This document shows positions 6,764-26,897 of a DNA stretch of 57,958 nucleotides, piece after piece. Origin of the DNA: Solirubrobacteraceae bacterium (GTDB lineage Bacteria; Actinomycetota; Thermoleophilia; Solirubrobacterales; Solirubrobacteraceae); contig JANJTP010000061.1 in assembly GCA_024711025.1 (NCBI GenBank), forward strand, positions 1 to 57,958, written 5' to 3'. The notes under the pieces were generated by a model. It saw nothing but the letters and a program-made list of their open reading frames with translations. It was not told where the DNA came from and did no database searches. The position numbers were made by a program, and so were the translations under genes. The stretch's first letter is position 1; every line of letters starts with the position of its first letter.

Positions 6764-8045
<1,282 letters not shown>

Positions 8046-8046
<1 letters not shown>

Positions 8047-10520
8047 TGCCCCGCCCGATCCGTGAGATGGTGACGTTCACGCTCGACGGGCGCGAGGTCA
8101 CGGCCCCCGAGAGCACGATGCTCGTCGACGCCGCGCTGGAGTACGGCGACGTCGAGATCCCGGTCTTCTGCTACGAGCCGAAGATCGGCCCGCCGGTCGG
8201 CGCCTGCCGCATGTGCCTCGTCGAGATCGAGGGCGTGCCGAAGCTGCAGGCCGGCTGCTCGGTGCCGGTCAAGGACGGGATGATCGTCCACACGAACACC
8301 CCCCGGGTCAAGGAGGCCCAGGAGGGCGTCGTCGAGTTCCTGCTGATCAACCACCCGCTCGACTGCCCGGTCTGCGACAAGGGCGGGGAGTGCCCGCTGC
8401 AGGACAAGTCGTTCGGCTGGGGCTCGGGCATCTCGCGCACCGTCGAGCCCAAGCGCCACTTCGAGAAGCCGCTGGCCCTGAGCCCGCTGATCGCGATCGA
8501 TCGCGAGCGCTGCATCATGTGCTACCGCTGCGTGCGCTTCAGCCAGGAGGTCTCCGAGGACCACCAGCTCGTCCTGCAGGAGCGCGGCGCGGACACGTTC
8601 GTCACGACGTTCGACGGGCACCCGTACGTCGCGCCGTTCAGCGGCAACATCATCGAGCTCTGCCCGGTCGGCGCGCTGACCTCGCGCCCCTATCGCTTCC
8701 GGGCGCGCCCGTGGGACATCGAGCAGGCCGGCTCGATCTGCATGCTCTGCCCGGCGCAGTGCAACGTCAGCTTCACCGTCCGCGACGAGCGCGTCCTGCG
8801 GGTCCTGCAGCGCGACCACGAGGGCGTCGACAACGGCTGGCTCTGCGACAAGGGCCGCTTCGCCTACCAGGCGATCCACGTCGACGAGCGCGTGACCGAG
8901 CCGCTGATCCGCGACGGCGGCACGTTGCGCGCCGTCCCCTGGGAGCTCGCGCTCGAGACCGCCGCCGCCGCGCTGCGCCGCGCGGGCGGTCGTGTCGCGG
9001 CGCTCGCCGGGGGCGAGACGACCAACGAGGAAGGCTTCCTGCTGCAGTCGCTCGTGCGCGACGCGCTCGGCTCGCCCGACGTCGACTCGCGCCGCGGCGG
9101 GACGCTGCCGCTGGAGCTTCACCGCGCCCTCGTCGCGCCGGCGCTGCAGGCATCGGTGCCCGATCTGCAGTACGCGCACGCGGTGCTGGTGCTCGACACC
9201 GAGCCGGTCGACGACATCCCGATCCTCGACCTGCGGATCCGCCGCGGCGTGCGCCACCAAGGCGTACGGCTGTTCGTCGCCACGAGCCGGCCGTCGTCGC
9301 TCGACGACCGCGCCCGCGGCATCGTCCGCTACGCGCCCGGCGCCGGCGAGGCGTTCCTCGCCGCGCTCGACGCCGCGCTCACGGGCGAGGGCGACGTCGA
9401 CGCGCTGGCCGGCGCCGCCGGCGCCGACGCGGACGCCGTCCGCCGACTGGCCGACGGCCTGAGGGACGCCGGCGAGGAGGTCGTCGTCCTCTGGGGCGAG
9501 CGCCTGACCGCCGGCCCGCGCGGCGCCGACGCCGCTCGCGCGCTGCTCAACGTCGCCGCGCGTCTCGGCCTTGCCGGCCGCGACGGCGCGGGCCTGCTCG
9601 AGGTGCCCTCCGCCGCGAACGGCCGCGGCCTGCGCGAGGTCGGCGTGCTGCCGAACGCGGGACCGGGTCTCTGCGAGCCCTCCGCCGAGGGTCGCGACGC
9701 GGACGGCATCGCCGCTGCTGCCGCGGCGGGGGAGATCGCCGCGCTCTACCTACTGCACACCGATCCGCTGCTCGACCAGCCGAGCCGCCGGGCCTGGGGC
9801 GCGGCGCTCGAGAAGGCCTCGACGGTCATCGCCCACGCGGCGTTCCTCACCGAGGGGATCGCCGAGCACGCGACCGTCGTCTTCCCGGCCGAGTCGCATG
9901 CCGAGAAGGAGGGCACCGTCGTCCATCCCGACGGGCGCGTCCAGCGCCTGCGCCGGGCGATCGGCCGCCAGGGCGACGTGCGCGGCGAGTGGCAGGTGCT
10001 GGCCGAGCTCGCCGCGCGGCTCGGCGCGGACCCGCGCGTCCTCACCGCCTCGATGGTCTCCCAGCGCCTGTTCGACGCGGTCCCGTTCTACGCCGGCCTG
10101 ACGCTCGACGAGATCGGCGGGCGCGGCGTGCGCTGGCCGGAGCGCGAGCAGGCGGGCGCGCTGCCCACCGCCGCGCTGGGGCCGTTCGCCCTGGAGGCGC
10201 CGCCTGCCGCCGCGACCGCCAACGGGCGCCTGCGGCTCGGCGCGTTCCGCTCGATCTGGGCCGCGCCCGAGGTCGCCGCCTCGCCGGCGCTGAGCTTCCT
10301 GCGGCCGCTCCAGCGTGCCGAGCTCTCGCCGGCCGACGCCGAGCGGCTCGGCCTGCGACACGGCGAGCGAGTCGTCGTCGCCTCGAACGGGCACAGCGTC
10401 AGCGCGCTCGTGCATCTGCGCCAGGCGGCCCCCGAGGGCAGCGTGTTCCTGGAGAGCGGCATCGCCGAGCACAGCGCGGCCAACCTCGACGGCCCGCTCG
10501 TGGAGGTGCGCCGGGCGTGA
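8046..10520 (+). CDS. nuoG: NADH-quinone oxidoreductase subunit G
   Basis: The 75-kDa-type subunit carrying the Fe-S chain of the peripheral arm (824 residues). The N-terminal 2Fe-2S ferredoxin domain has Cys42, 54, 57 and 71. Next come the His/Cys N5 motif ([18 protein letters not shown]), a 4Fe-4S set beginning CIMCYRC and ending in CPVGAL, and an extra cluster set CMLCPAQCN with a distal Cys in NGWLCDKG, equivalent to cluster N7. The remaining two thirds is a molybdopterin-oxidoreductase-like domain with degraded sequence, as usual for NuoG. The GTG at 8046 abuts nuoF; an ATG at 8067 is the alternative start. Confidence 0.96.
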
Positions 10521-16638: not shown

Positions 16639-18182
16639 TGCTCGCTGCCGTCAAGGCGCCGGTGATCGACTGGGCCGGCCTGTCGCCGCTGATCGCGCTG
16701 CTGGGCGGGGCGGTCCTCGTCCTCGTGCTGGGTCTGGCCGGATTCCGCGTCGTTCGCACGCAGTGGGTCCCGACGTTGACGCTCGCCGCGTTCGGCGCCG
16801 CCATCGGGCTGTTGCTGTGGCAGTGGGACAGCGACCTGTCGCTGATCGAGGGCACCCTGCGGCTCGACCGGCTGACCATCCTCGTGACGCTGATCGTATG
16901 CGCCACCGCGATCCTGGCGACGCTCCTCGCATGGCGTGATCAGGCCGCCCGCGAGATCGCCCATGGCGAGTTCTTCTGCCTGCTGCTGACCGCGTCCGCG
17001 GGGATGATGGTGCTCGTCGCCGCGCAGGACCTCCTCGCCGCGTTCGTCGGGCTCGAGCTGCTGTCGATGCCGCTGTACGTGCTGTGCGCCTCCCGCCTGC
17101 GGGCGGCGCGCTCGCTCGAGTCGGGCCTCAAGTACCTGATCGTCGGCTCGGTCGGCTCGGCGACGCTGCTCTACGGCTTCGCGCTGCTCTACGGCGCGAG
17201 CGGCACCACGAGCTACGCCGGGATCGCCAAGGCGATCGAGACGGGCGGCCTCGCCGGGGATCCGCTGGTGCTCACCGGCGCCGCGCTCGCGGTCGTCGGC
17301 CTGGCGTTCAAGGCCTCGCTGGCGCCGTTCCACCAGTGGACGCCCGATGTCTACGAGGGCGCTCCGACCCCAGTCACGGCGTTCATGTCCGTGGCGACGA
17401 AGATCGCGGCCTTCGGCGTGATCGTGCGCCTCTTCGACGTCGCGCTGGCACCGGCGGTCGACGACTGGAAGCCGATCTGGATCGCGATCGCCGTGATCTC
17501 GATCGTCGTCGGCAACGTCGGCGCGCTCGGCCAGTCGTCGCTCAAGCGCCTGCTCGCCTACTCGTCGATCGCGCAAGCCGGCTACATCCTCGTCGGCGTC
17601 GTCGTCTTCACCGACCTCGGCGTCCAGGCCGTCCTGCTCTACATCGTCGTCTACCTGTTCGCGAACATCGCCGCGTTCGCGGTGGTCACGCTGCGCGAGC
17701 GCGAGACCGACCTCGGTGACGACATCGGCGCGCTGCGCGGGCTCGGCGCCAAGCGCCCGCTGATGGCGCTGAGCATGACGCTCGCGATGCTCAGCCTCGC
17801 CGGCCTGCCGGCGACGGCCGGCTTCGTCGGCAAGCTGCGGCTGATCGAGGCCGCCGCCGACGGCGGTCTGACGTGGCTCGGCGTGATGATCGTCATCGGC
17901 TCGATGATCTCGCTGGCCTACTACCTGCCGGTCGCGGCGGCGATGTGGCGCGAGGAGGCCGCAGCGACCCCCGAGCCCGGCATCGACCCGCGCACGGGAC
18001 GGCCGGCGCTCGCCGGCGGAGCGCCCGGCGCCGCGGACGCGGCGGCGGCCGATGGGCGCGGCGGATGGGAGGTCACGCTCGTGGCGTTCGTCTGCGGTGC
18101 CGCGTCGCTCGTCTTCGGCATCGTGCCCCAGCCGCTGTTCGACCTGGTCGAGCAGGCCGCGCGCGGCCTCGGGCTGAGCTGA
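16638..18182 (+). CDS. nuoN: NADH-quinone oxidoreductase subunit N
   Basis: The third antiporter-type subunit and the last gene of the operon (514 residues). Markers are AAFVGLELLSMPLYVLCA with the conserved Glu, KASLAPFHQWTPDVYEGAPTPVTAFMSVATKIAAF and SLKRLLAYSSIAQAGYILVG. A hydrophilic loop of ~40 residues rich in Ala, Gly and Pro (TPEPGIDPRTGRPALAGG onward) precedes the final helix. The C-terminus GLGLS lies inside a 27-bp tandem repeat, so three further in-frame copies of the GLS-stop sequence follow the real stop. Confidence 0.96.
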   Translation: MLAAVKAPVIDWAGLSPLIALLGGAVLVLVLGLAGFRVVRTQWVPTLTLAAFGAAIGLLLWQWDSDLSLIEGTLRLDRLTILVTLIVCATAILATLLAWRDQAAREIAHGEFFCLLLTASAGMMVLVAAQDLLAAFVGLELLSMPLYVLCASRLRAARSLESGLKYLIVGSVGSATLLYGFALLYGASGTTSYAGIAKAIETGGLAGDPLVLTGAALAVVGLAFKASLAPFHQWTPDVYEGAPTPVTAFMSVATKIAAFGVIVRLFDVALAPAVDDWKPIWIAIAVISIVVGNVGALGQSSLKRLLAYSSIAQAGYILVGVVVFTDLGVQAVLLYIVVYLFANIAAFAVVTLRERETDLGDDIGALRGLGAKRPLMALSMTLAMLSLAGLPATAGFVGKLRLIEAAADGGLTWLGVMIVIGSMISLAYYLPVAAAMWREEAAATPEPGIDPRTGRPALAGGAPGAADAAAADGRGGWEVTLVAFVCGAASLVFGIVPQPLFDLVEQAARGLGLS

Positions 18183-18282: not shown

Positions 18283-18684
18283 TCAGCTCGGCGACTCCAC
18301 GCGCAGGCGGTGAGCCCGGGCGGCGGCCGCCTGACGCTCGTCGTACGTCACGACCGCGTCCAGGCGCGCTCCGAGCGCGAGGGCGGCCGCGACGTGGATC
18401 GCATCGAGCGAACGCAGCGCGGGCGGCTGGAGCGCTCCGGCGCGCTCGAGGATCGGCCGCGTCAGCGGCAGCATGACCACATCCCGCAGCAGTTCCCGTG
18501 CCAGCCTCGGACCCTGTCCGCCGAGCCGCGCGCCGACCCGCAGCAGCTCGACGACCAGGAGCTCGCTCGACACCAGCGCCTCGGCCGTCGCCAGGCGCAC
18601 CATCAGCGGTGGGCGCTCGGGCTCCGCGACGAGCAGCTTGGCGGCGGCCGACGTGTCGAGGTAGAGCAGCGCCCCGCGGGTCAC
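18283..18684 (-). CDS. PIN-domain ribonuclease toxin (VapC type)
   Basis: A 133-residue PIN-domain protein, the toxin of a VapBC-type module. Such toxins are Mg-dependent endoribonucleases, often cleaving tRNA or rRNA. The acidic active-site residues are present: Asp10 (YLDTSAAAKLL), Glu41 (SSELLVVELLR), Asp94 (SLDAIHVAAALAL) and Asp115 (VVTYDERQ). The start is a GTG at 18684 that overlaps the stop of the antitoxin gene as GTGA, the usual coupling. The GTG was chosen over long in-frame readings upstream for that reason. The RNA target cannot be predicted. Confidence 0.9.
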   Translation of the reverse strand: MTRGALLYLDTSAAAKLLVAEPERPPLMVRLATAEALVSSELLVVELLRVGARLGGQGPRLARELLRDVVMLPLTRPILERAGALQPPALRSLDAIHVAAALALGARLDAVVTYDERQAAAARAHRLRVESPS

Positions 18685-19035: not shown

Positions 19036-20643
19036 GTGGCGCACCCCGTCGAGAGCTTCACCGAGGATGAGGCGGCGCTGCTGGCGCCGCACGTGACGAG
19101 CCTCGACCGGCCGGTCTTCGCGCTCGTCAACCTGCCGGAGACCGTCAAGGGCGCTCTGTTCGCGCGCTACTCGCGCTACCAGGGAACGCTCCGCCGGCTG
19201 TTCCTCGACGAGTTCGCGGGCTCGCTGCCCGAGTGGGCGCGCACGGCACGGCCGTTCGACGATGCGGAGGGGGAGCGGGCGGCGGAGCTCTACGAGCGGA
19301 TCTTCCTCGGCTTCGGCGACGACTCCGTGGCCCAGCTCGGCGGCGCGCACATCGCCTGCGAGTGGGTCTCGAACGTCCTCACCAAGGTTCTCCAGCGACC
19401 GCGGATCGCGGCCTATCTGGAGCAGTCGACGCGGTACATCGCCTATGACGCGCCGCTGCCCGCCGGCGGCTACCGCTACCACCGCGATCCCGAGCTCGGA
19501 CCGGCCTACGAGCGTGCGATGGACGAGCTGTTCGCGATCTACTCGGCGTCGCTGCCGCGGGTCGCTGCGTGGGCCGAGTCGCGCTTCCCGCGTCCCGGCG
19601 ACACGTCCGAGGCGGCGCACCGCCGGGCGGTCCAGGCCAAGGCGCTCGACCTGCTGCGCGGGGTCCTGCCCGCGGCCTCCCTTTCGCACATGGGCATCTA
19701 CGCGAGCGGCCAGACGTACGAGCAGCTCGTGCTGCACCTCCTCGCCCACCCGCTGCCGGAGGCCCGCGAATACGGTCGCATGCTTCTCGAGACGCTCGAG
19801 CAGGTCGTCCCGAGCTTCGTCACGCGCGTCAGGCGCCCCGATCGTGGCGGGCGCTGGATTGCCTACCTGGAGCAGCGCGAGGCGGCGGGCCGACGGTGGG
19901 CTGCGCGGCTCGGGCTCGACCGCGAGCCGGGGGACGACGGCCACGGTGGCCCTTCGGTACGCCTGCTCCACGTCGACGGCGACGAGGACCGGCTGCTCGC
20001 CGCGTTGCTGTTCGAGGCGGCCGGCCAGCCCGAGGAGCGGCTGACCGCGGCGCTGCGGACGCTGCCCGCCGATCGCCGCGCCGCTCTGCTGGGCGATCTC
20101 GTCGGGGAGCGCGAGAATCGCCGGCACCGTCCGGGCCGCGGCTTCGAGGCGCTGCGCTACCGGTTCGAGATCGTCAGCGACTACGGCGCCTTCCGCGACC
20201 TCCAGCGCCACCGGATGCTGACCGTCCAGTGGCAGCGCCTCGGCCCTCACCTCGGCGCCGACGTGCCCGACGAGCTCGAGCAGGCGGGTGTCGCCGACGA
20301 CTATCGTCGCGCGATCGAGCTCTCGGGCGCCGAGTGGCAGCGGCTCGTCGACGCGGGTCACGTCGAGCGGGCGCCGTACGCGCTGTGCCTGGGCTACCGG
20401 ATCCGCTTCGTGCTCGACTGCAACGCCCGCGAGGCGATGCAGCTGATCGAGCTGCGCTCCGGTCGCGAGGGCCATCCCAGCTACCGCGCGGTCGCCCACG
20501 AGATGCACCGGCTGATCGCCGGCGTGCACCCGGCGGTTGCCGCCGCGATGAGCCACGTCGACCGTGAGGCCGAGCCGCGGCTCGAGCGCGTCCTCAGCGA
20601 GATGCGCGCCCAGACGCGGCTCGACGCGCGCATCTCCCGCTGA
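19036..20643 (+). CDS. Double-domain ThyX-like protein (FAD-dependent thymidylate synthase family)
   Basis: A 535-residue protein, more than twice the usual ThyX length of 220-250. ThyX makes dTMP from dUMP with FAD, NADPH and methylene-tetrahydrofolate. The first half has GDDSVAQLGGAHIACEW and a degenerate signature RPRIAAYLEQSTRYI (Arg121, Arg123, Ser131). The second half has FRDLQRHRMLTVQWQR (RHR at 391-393). The canonical motif is RHR followed by seven residues and Ser. Half one lost the His; half two lost the Ser. The GTG at 19036 follows a TACGGT box; 27 codons of open frame exist upstream. Whether it is an active synthase is uncertain. Confidence 0.75.
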   Translation: MAHPVESFTEDEAALLAPHVTSLDRPVFALVNLPETVKGALFARYSRYQGTLRRLFLDEFAGSLPEWARTARPFDDAEGERAAELYERIFLGFGDDSVAQLGGAHIACEWVSNVLTKVLQRPRIAAYLEQSTRYIAYDAPLPAGGYRYHRDPELGPAYERAMDELFAIYSASLPRVAAWAESRFPRPGDTSEAAHRRAVQAKALDLLRGVLPAASLSHMGIYASGQTYEQLVLHLLAHPLPEAREYGRMLLETLEQVVPSFVTRVRRPDRGGRWIAYLEQREAAGRRWAARLGLDREPGDDGHGGPSVRLLHVDGDEDRLLAALLFEAAGQPEERLTAALRTLPADRRAALLGDLVGERENRRHRPGRGFEALRYRFEIVSDYGAFRDLQRHRMLTVQWQRLGPHLGADVPDELEQAGVADDYRRAIELSGAEWQRLVDAGHVERAPYALCLGYRIRFVLDCNAREAMQLIELRSGREGHPSYRAVAHEMHRLIAGVHPAVAAAMSHVDREAEPRLERVLSEMRAQTRLDARISR

Positions 20644-24929: not shown

Positions 24930-26897
24930 CTACTCGTCCTCGTCGCCCATGCTCGCGGCGATCTCGTGCACGACGCCAGGGTCGCGCAGCGTCGTCACGT
25001 CGCCGAGCTGACGGCCCTCGGCGATGTCCTTGAGCAGGCGGCGCATGATCTTGCCGGAGCGGGTCTTCGGCAGGTCGCCGGTCCAGATGACGCGTCGCGG
25101 GCGGGCCAGCTTGCCGATCCGCTGCCCGACGTGCTCGCGGATCTCGTCGGTCAGCGAGTCGTCGCCGTCGAGCTCCCCGCGGAGCGTCACGAACGCGCAG
25201 ATCGCCTGGCCGGTGTCCTCGTCGCTCTGACCGATCACGGCGGCCTCGGCGACCTTCGGGTGGCTGACGATCGCCGACTCGACCTCGGCGGTGCTCATGC
25301 GGTGGCCCGAGACGTTGATGACGTCGTCGACGCGGCCGATGACCCAGAAGTAGCCGTCGCGGTCCTCACGGGCGGCGTCGCCGACGAAGTAGTTGGGCGC
25401 GCCGAAGCGCTCCCAGTATCCGGAGAGGTAGCGATCGGGCTCCCTGTAGAGACCGCGCAGCATCCCCGGCCACGGCTGGCGCAGCGTCAGCAGGCCCTGG
25501 ACGTCGCGCTGCACCTCGCGGCCCTCGCCGTCGACCACCTTCGCCGCGATCCCCGGCAGCGGCGTCCCGGCGGCCCCGGGCTTCATCCGCTGGGCACCGG
25601 GCAGCGTCGTGATCATGATCTGCGCGGTCTCGGTCTGCCACCAGGTGTCGACGACGGGGCAGCGACCCTCGCCGACGACGTGCCAGTACCAGGCCCAGGC
25701 CTTCGGGTTGATCGGCTCGCCGACCGTGCCCAGCAGCCGCAGCGCGGAGCGGTCGAAGCCCCGCACGTGCTCGACTCCCCACTTCATGCACGTGCGGATC
25801 GCCGTCGGCGCGGTGTAGAGGATCGTCACGCCGTAGCGCTCGCACAGCTCCCACCAGATCCCCTTGTGGGGATAGTCGGGCGCCCCCTCGAACATCACCG
25901 ACGTCGCGGCGTTCGCGAGCGCTCCGTAGACGATGTAGCTGTGCCCGGTGATCCAGCCGACGTCGGCGGTGCACCAGAAGACGTCCTCGTCGGCCCGCAG
26001 GTCGAAGACGTTCCTGAACGTCCACGTCACGCCGGTCAGGTAGCCGCCGGTGGTGTGCTGGATGCCCTTCGGCTTCGCCGTCGAGCCGGACGAGTAGAGG
26101 ATGAAGAGCGGATGCTCGCTGTCGAGCGACTCGGCCGGGCACTCGGGGTCCGCGGCCGCGAGCGCCTCGTCCCACCACAGGTCCCGGCCGTCGCGCATCG
26201 GGCAATCGACGCCCGTGTGGCGCACGACGAGGATCGTCTCGAGGTGCGTGAGGTCGTCCATCGTGCGGTCGACCTCGGCCTTGACCGCGACGGTGCGGCC
26301 CTTGCGTCGCCCGCCGTCGGACGTGATCAGGCAGCTCGCGTTGCTGAACGCCATGCGCTCGTGCACCGACTCCGCGCTGAAGCCGCCGAACACGACGTTG
26401 TGCGGCGCGCCGATCCGCGCGCATGCGAGCATCGCGACGACGACCTCGGGGATCATCGGCAGGTAGATGCCGACGACGTCGCCGGGGCCGATGCCGCGCG
26501 CCTTGAGCGCGTTGGCGCAGCGCTGGACGTCGGCGAGCAGCTGCGCGTAGGTGATCCGGCGCTGCTCGCCCTCCTCGCCGTGCCAGTGGAAGGCGACGCG
26601 CTCACCCAGCCCTGCCTGCACATGACGGTCCAGGCAGTTGTGCGAGACGTTCAGCCTGCCGCCGGCGAACCAGCGGTAGAACGGCGCGTCCTCGTCCTCC
26701 AGCGCGTGCTGCCAGGGCTCGAACCAGTCGAGCGCCGAAGCCTGCTCCTCCCACCAGCCGACCGGGTCGTGCGCGGCTCGCTCGTGCTCGCTCAGGTCGG
26801 AGATCAGCGCCCGCTCGCGGAACTCCTCGGGAACGTCGAACCACTCGCGCTCGAGGAGCGCCTCGAGCTCGTGCTCCAGAACCGGGTCGTCGGCCAT
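24930..26897 (-). CDS. acs: Acetyl-CoA synthetase
   Basis: Activates acetate to acetyl-CoA through acetyl-AMP in the cytoplasm. The 655-residue length is normal. Visible are YSSGSTAKPKGIQHTTGGYL (ATP/P-loop), VDTWWQTETAQIMIT, YFVGDAAREDRDGYFWVIGRVDDVINVSGHRM, and the C-terminal catalytic lysine in PKTRSGKIMRRLL, which is a reversible acetylation site in the family. The ATG at 26897 follows a GGGGAG ribosome binding site and removes a long spurious upstream extension. No pat/cobB-type regulator is adjacent. It converges with potB. Confidence 0.96.
   Translation of the reverse strand: MADDPVLEHELEALLEREWFDVPEEFRERALISDLSEHERAAHDPVGWWEEQASALDWFEPWQHALEDEDAPFYRWFAGGRLNVSHNCLDRHVQAGLGERVAFHWHGEEGEQRRITYAQLLADVQRCANALKARGIGPGDVVGIYLPMIPEVVVAMLACARIGAPHNVVFGGFSAESVHERMAFSNASCLITSDGGRRKGRTVAVKAEVDRTMDDLTHLETILVVRHTGVDCPMRDGRDLWWDEALAAADPECPAESLDSEHPLFILYSSGSTAKPKGIQHTTGGYLTGVTWTFRNVFDLRADEDVFWCTADVGWITGHSYIVYGALANAATSVMFEGAPDYPHKGIWWELCERYGVTILYTAPTAIRTCMKWGVEHVRGFDRSALRLLGTVGEPINPKAWAWYWHVVGEGRCPVVDTWWQTETAQIMITTLPGAQRMKPGAAGTPLPGIAAKVVDGEGREVQRDVQGLLTLRQPWPGMLRGLYREPDRYLSGYWERFGAPNYFVGDAAREDRDGYFWVIGRVDDVINVSGHRMSTAEVESAIVSHPKVAEAAVIGQSDEDTGQAICAFVTLRGELDGDDSLTDEIREHVGQRIGKLARPRRVIWTGDLPKTRSGKIMRRLLKDIAEGRQLGDVTTLRDPGVVHEIAASMGDEDE

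Follow-up and report, generated by a model that had tools for sequence, protein, structure and literature searches.

Flavin-dependent thymidylate synthases of the ThyX family (PF02511, TIGR02170), for instance TM0449 of Thermotoga maritima and ThyX of Mycobacterium tuberculosis (Mtb), are homotetramers of subunits of about 230 amino acids. In Mtb ThyX, flavin adenine dinucleotide, FAD(A), is gripped by the RHR motif of subunit A together with Ser71 and Arg190 of subunit B, and deoxyuridine monophosphate, dUMP(C), is contacted by Arg95 and Arg199 of subunit A and by Arg87, Ser105 and Arg107 of subunit C, whose Tyr108 is the lid (PMC6514825). The UMP/dUMP methylase PolB of Streptomyces cacaoi (4p5a/4p5b) has the ThyX fold, and Thy1 of Thermus thermophilus (6j61) is a ThyX with added sequence, an extra C-terminal domain going by the title of the entry. 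The gene described here, on the 57,958-nucleotide contig JANJTP010000061.1 of a Solirubrobacteraceae bacterium (assembly GCA_024711025.1; the whole stretch is called the window), encodes a protein that carries two ThyX domains per chain and divides the active-site residues between them. This double ThyX resembles ordinary ThyX in the fold of both domains, in the chromosomal slot that it occupies in relatives, in its genomic role and, once both halves are summed, in the main active-site residues; PolB, in contrast, is a single-domain enzyme of an antibiotic pathway and a poorer match to the double than ThyX is. We consider it highly probable that the protein is a working flavin-dependent thymidylate synthase, probably the only one of the organism, with a division of labour between its domains and a two-chain pseudo-tetramer that would hold two live and two dead sites. 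The open-access literature yielded no description of such an architecture or residue split; subscription journals lay outside this search.

Two-domain architecture and the division of active-site residues

The sequence-only reading had described a 535-residue protein with two ThyX-like halves, and had seen in a profile search the decisive check on such a fusion. The open reading frame (ORF) and its coordinates were confirmed, the GTG start at 19036 agrees with the N-termini of the homologues, and the Pfam Thy1 model matched the ORF in two distinct segments (19267-19815 and 20122-20532), with 112.7 bits for the whole ORF against a cut-off of 24.8. No Pfam match to the ThyA domain (PF00303) was found in the protein. 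A phmmer search of the Protein Data Bank with the single protein sequence found no ThyX, and family profiles of each half were required. Chance or mis-assembly was ruled out, as the double is present in dozens of assemblies that are independent of one another, complete genomes among them. NCBI names proteins of this kind FAD-dependent thymidylate synthase. An AlphaFold model built from 73 homologues had a mean predicted local distance difference test score (pLDDT) of 87.9 and a predicted template modelling score of 0.86; half 1 modelled on its own had a pLDDT of 80.6. Half 2 superposed on T. maritima ThyX (3g4a) with a VIA-align Z of 16.1 and a root mean square deviation (rmsd) of 2.3 Å over 193 residues, and half 1 on Mtb ThyX (2gq2) with a Z of 11.3 and an rmsd of 4.5 Å over 193 residues. 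The 47 highest-ranking entries in the structure search with half 1 were all ThyX family members, and the first unrelated entry had a Z of about 4. From these superpositions, both halves are predicted ThyX domains with the Thy1 fold.

For the comparison of residues, 72 homologues from named genomes and relatives were aligned with the window protein (73 sequences), and a combined set of 76 sequences comprised 48 nearer and 28 distant homologues. Carriers of the double form include Actinomycetota, Dormibacterota, a Parabacteroides plasmid (40% identity), plasmids of Bacillus and Paenibacillus (about 21%, the lowest identity) and large-phage contigs, with distant homologues on 29 viral contigs that belong for the most part to large phages. 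In all 76 sequences, half 1 has kept the Ser and Arg of E-x-S-x-R-Y and has lost RHR, and half 2 has kept RHR (RHNR in the Bacillus type) and the dUMP arginine, which is missing only from one truncated row, and has lost the Ser/Arg pair. An intact RHR(X)7-8S was thus found within no single domain, RHR being confined to half 2 and the Ser with its Arg to half 1. As judged from these alignments, the complementary losses are ancient. Residues invariant in the 73-sequence alignment are Y127-LEQSTR-Y134, R44-YSR-47, G94-DDS-97, R208, G209, L211 and P212 in half 1, and R391-H-R393, R387, R465 and R474 in half 2. What had been read from the motif of half 2 (RHRMLTVQWQRLGP, R391 to R401), namely that RHRMLTVQWQR keeps RHR and lacks the Ser, therefore extends to every homologue. 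For the motif of half 1 (RPRIAAYLEQSTRY, from R121 through S131 to the lid Tyr), the statement that RPRIAAYLEQS keeps the Ser stands; the loss noted there, that of the His, was too narrow, because the RPR position is occupied by WGR, RGR, DWP, SNP and others among the homologues, so that RHR has been lost as a whole.

When each half was mapped by profile alignment to 3n3y, 1kq4 and 3gwc, the residues contributed by subunit A in Mtb ThyX fell in half 2, which exclusively has RHR and keeps the Arg199 counterpart (Arg474). Those of subunit C fell in half 1, exclusively for the counterparts of Ser105 and Arg107, and in 73 of 76 sequences for that of Tyr108; the counterparts of Ser71 and Arg190, the subunit B residues, lie in half 1 in almost every one of the 28 distant homologues. 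The whole chain thus contains counterparts of Arg95, His96, Arg97, Arg199, Ser71, Ser105, Arg107 and Tyr108 as well as an Arg190 counterpart in one half. This split fits the roles of the subunits, because in solved ThyX structures the two sets are supplied to a shared active site by different subunits. In a tree of 35 half 1, 35 half 2 and 18 ordinary ThyX domains, the half 1 domains were all united on a single branch (Shimodaira-Hasegawa-like approximate likelihood ratio test 100), as were the half 2 domains on a second one (98); the ordinary domains fell between the two. Because the two kinds of halves form separate branches, the tree suggests one old duplication and one specialisation, which would predate the split of the bacterial, Bacillus-type and phage forms.

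Table 1. Coordinates of the double ThyX gene, its motifs and the flanks of its slot in the window
Feature	Coordinates	Strand	Remarks
Double-domain ThyX gene	19036..20643	+	535 aa, GTG start
Half 1, residues 1-280, ThyX-fold domain with substrate-side residues	19036..19875	+	predicted structure
ARYS (43-46)	19162..19173	+	canonical ARxS counterpart; in half 1, not half 2
GDDS (94-97)	19315..19326	+	S97 aligned to FAD-binding Ser71 of Mtb ThyX
RPR (121-123)	19396..19404	+	degenerate RHR position of half 1
EQSTRY (129-134)	19420..19437	+	counterparts of Mtb Gln103, Ser105, Arg107, Tyr108 (dUMP site, lid); invariant, 73-row alignment
RGVLP (208-212)	19657..19671	+	canonical RxVLP motif, half 1 only
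Half 2, residues 304-513, ThyX-fold domain with flavin-side residues	19945..20574	+	predicted structure
NRRHRPGR (361-368)	20116..20139	+	basic loop at canonical GHxS position; invariant Arg368 in place of Ser
RHR (391-393)	20206..20214	+	putative flavin-binding motif, invariant in half 2
NAR (463-465)	20422..20430	+	counterpart of Mtb Arg190 (FAD)
LR (473-474)	20452..20457	+	counterpart of Mtb Arg199 (dUMP)
nuoN	16923..18170	+	conserved upstream flank of thyX slot
Acetyl-CoA-synthetase-like gene (acs)	24948..26840	-	conserved downstream flank of slot; presumed name, from sequence

Genomic context and distribution

The sequence-only reading had held that a canonical thyX or thyA elsewhere in the genome, together with predicted pockets unable to accommodate FAD or dUMP, would argue against synthase activity. 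Searches of the window's genome (97% complete) found no thyA, other thyX, TK1-type thymidine kinase or folA. Among 60 relatives and the own genome, 45 genomes (the own included) carry a complete double, and in these 45 no thyA, other ThyX hit or folA was found; FolA was present in only three genomes of the set, each with a full-length ThyA. ThyA chemistry requires dihydrofolate reductase and ThyX chemistry does not, and therefore the lack of FolA in carriers of the double fits ThyX chemistry. In a sample of 296 genomes spread over the phylum, the double was found in 88 (about 30% of the sampled Actinomycetota genomes), ordinary ThyX in 120, and both together in none of the 88, where 36 would be expected (Fisher 7e-26, to be taken as a guide only, as the genomes are related). 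No other recognised synthase was detected in 85 of the 88 carriers. ThyA gave strong matches in two carriers and a weak match in one; one of the two strong matches, in genome G186, covers no more than positions 1-74 of the 266 in the profile.

The double and ordinary ThyX also share a chromosomal place. The order in the window is nuoM, nuoN, the double and, in reverse orientation, the gene that we take to be acs, and in five relatives (L212, L214, L215, L216 and L217) an ordinary thyX is flanked by the same two genes, nuoN and acs. In the clearest case, L216, it begins about 0.4 kb after nuoN, and the double in the window 0.9 kb after nuoN. Evidently, one synthase replaced the other at the same chromosomal place. 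The nearest homologues of the window gene are chromosomal and syntenic, and the analysis of neighbouring genes in Solirubrobacterales found nuo and acs as flanks and no thymidylate operon. The gap that separates nuoN from the double ThyX gene in the window contains, on the opposite strand (18283-18669), a gene for a VapC-like PIN-domain protein.

Other variants were seen in the phylum sample. Approximately 45 of the 296 genomes (e.g. G075, G080, G090 and G103) had nothing better than a weak ThyA-like match, with E values of about 1e-8 to 1e-12 and, in most cases, a protein length of 220-320 amino acids, and most of these genomes had no ThyX, so that a divergent class of ThyA is possibly represented. 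In five genomes (G069, G111, G134, G099 and G218) Thy1 matched once and weakly (E about 1e-9 to 1e-11), in a protein that the profile of the double did not match; this may be another variant of ThyX.

Proposed mechanism and alternative explanations

In the proposed mechanism, a head-to-tail duplication of the ancestral ThyX gene would have been followed by specialisation of the two copies. Half 2 would act as the subunit that binds the flavin through RHR and would reach over dUMP with Arg474, and half 1 would take the role of the neighbouring subunits, holding dUMP and closing the lid (Ser131, Arg133 and Tyr134) and helping to clamp FAD (Ser97). A pair of chains might assemble into a pseudo-tetramer with a symmetry like that of ThyX. 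Of its four sites, two would be dead and two complete, the latter each combining one half 2 with both half 1 domains. The chemistry would be that of ThyX, in which a one-carbon unit passes from methylene-tetrahydrofolate to N5 of FAD and then to C5 of dUMP, with reduced nicotinamide adenine dinucleotide phosphate (NADPH) as the reductant.

Several observations weigh against such an enzyme or the evidence for it. In the alignment, the position of Mtb Arg87 is Asn113 in half 1, and thus this dUMP contact of ordinary ThyX is not kept; among the 48 nearer homologues, Mtb Arg190 has its counterpart in half 2 (Arg465), half 1 having Gln226 at the position. For these two reasons the role of subunit B is less certain and not fully assigned in the window's group. 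Half 1 of a phage homologue, L181, lacks the lid Tyr. Unlike ordinary ThyX, the double scored below the cut-off of the NCBIfam thyX equivalog model TIGR02170 (43.8 against 87.9 bits), and the tree came from a quick search and has long branches. Finally, no synthase was detected in 19 of the 296 genomes, and therefore absence from a search is not proof.

A first alternative is an active ThyX-type enzyme of another arrangement, with four sites that work via otherwise adapted half-sites or with a monomer that has a single composite site. The location of the Arg190 counterpart in the nearer homologues is in its favour, as is Arg123, which their half 1 has kept. However, because no half 1 has RHR and no half 2 has the Ser/Arg pair in any of the 76 sequences, the two reverse sites would miss flavin and dUMP residues, and this arrangement is unlikely. 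It is quite improbable that the protein is a flavin-dependent methylase of another pyrimidine nucleotide, like the UMP methylase PolB, or catalyses another one-carbon reaction while thymidylate comes from an unrecognised source. ThyX relatives with an altered substrate do exist, such as PolB (PMC5003785), and the PolB structures 4p5a/4p5b were matched in the structure comparisons; however, the double excludes ordinary ThyX and sits in its slot, its carriers lack thyA and TK1-type kinase, and its distant homologues lie on contigs of large phages, for which own dTMP (deoxythymidine monophosphate) synthesis has been inferred from ThyA or ThyX (PMC7824862).

The sequence-only reading had left two choices, an asymmetric pseudo-dimer with a composite site and a non-catalytic flavoprotein. 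The former is favoured: the residues partition according to the subunit roles of Mtb ThyX, and the genomic evidence, namely the exclusion of ordinary ThyX across the phylum and the slot shared with it in relatives, points the same way. A non-catalytic flavoprotein or a decaying pseudo-enzyme might be expected to have the low equivalog score and halves that each miss part of the motif, but its losses would hardly avoid overlapping in all 76 homologues and leave the remaining motif residues invariant, nor would 85 of the 88 carrier genomes do without another synthase; we regard it as very improbable indeed.

Related forms and significance

Two-domain ThyX-like proteins also occur in large phages. 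The family phrog_36506 (491 positions) and the protein A0A7D4 of Microcystis phage LMM01 (491 amino acids) look like the same two-domain architecture. Models from large phages gave full-length Foldseek matches with template modelling scores of 0.55-0.60 and about 20% identity, at an rmsd of 13-14 Å, so that this match does not confirm the domain arrangement. The phage-contig homologues have the same split between half 1 and half 2, as read from the contig homologues themselves, A0A7D4 having been compared by structure and length; they differ in that the Arg190 counterpart is in half 1, whereas in actinobacteria it is in half 2. The Bacillus and Paenibacillus plasmid genes (L175-L177) form a separate branch of distant double ThyX in which RHNR replaces RHR in half 2, and they lie near genes for an AAA ATPase, a UvrD-type helicase or a toprim protein, which suggests phage-plasmids. 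A dcd gene about 0.7 kb upstream of the double in Euzebya and a dihydrofolate reductase gene about 3 kb downstream of it in Parabacteroides are both of weak supporting value. One genome, G100, has two full-length double ThyX genes. Another, G056, had two Thy1 hits and was rejected as a further double, as its ordinary ThyX (L218, minus strand, about 8021-9750) is split by an intein-like element, a long in-frame insert just before the active-site motif THELVRHR that starts with CYDADTEVLTSDGW and ends with VSGN.

Taken as a family, the double is likely to be an ancient and widespread ThyX whose internal duplicates were subfunctionalised, one for the flavin and the other for the substrate, which would make it a natural half-of-sites enzyme, and the sole source of dTMP in a large part of Actinomycetota, with representatives also in phages. 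It would explain the thymidylate supply of many actinobacteria that otherwise seem to be without a proper synthase, and its public name conceals the split. Thymidylate synthase is an essential enzyme and serves as a drug target; work on the mechanism of ThyX has been complicated by its four identical, three-subunit sites. Each main site residue of the double is found in one domain only, which would make one-site mutants, stoichiometry and half-of-sites questions directly testable.
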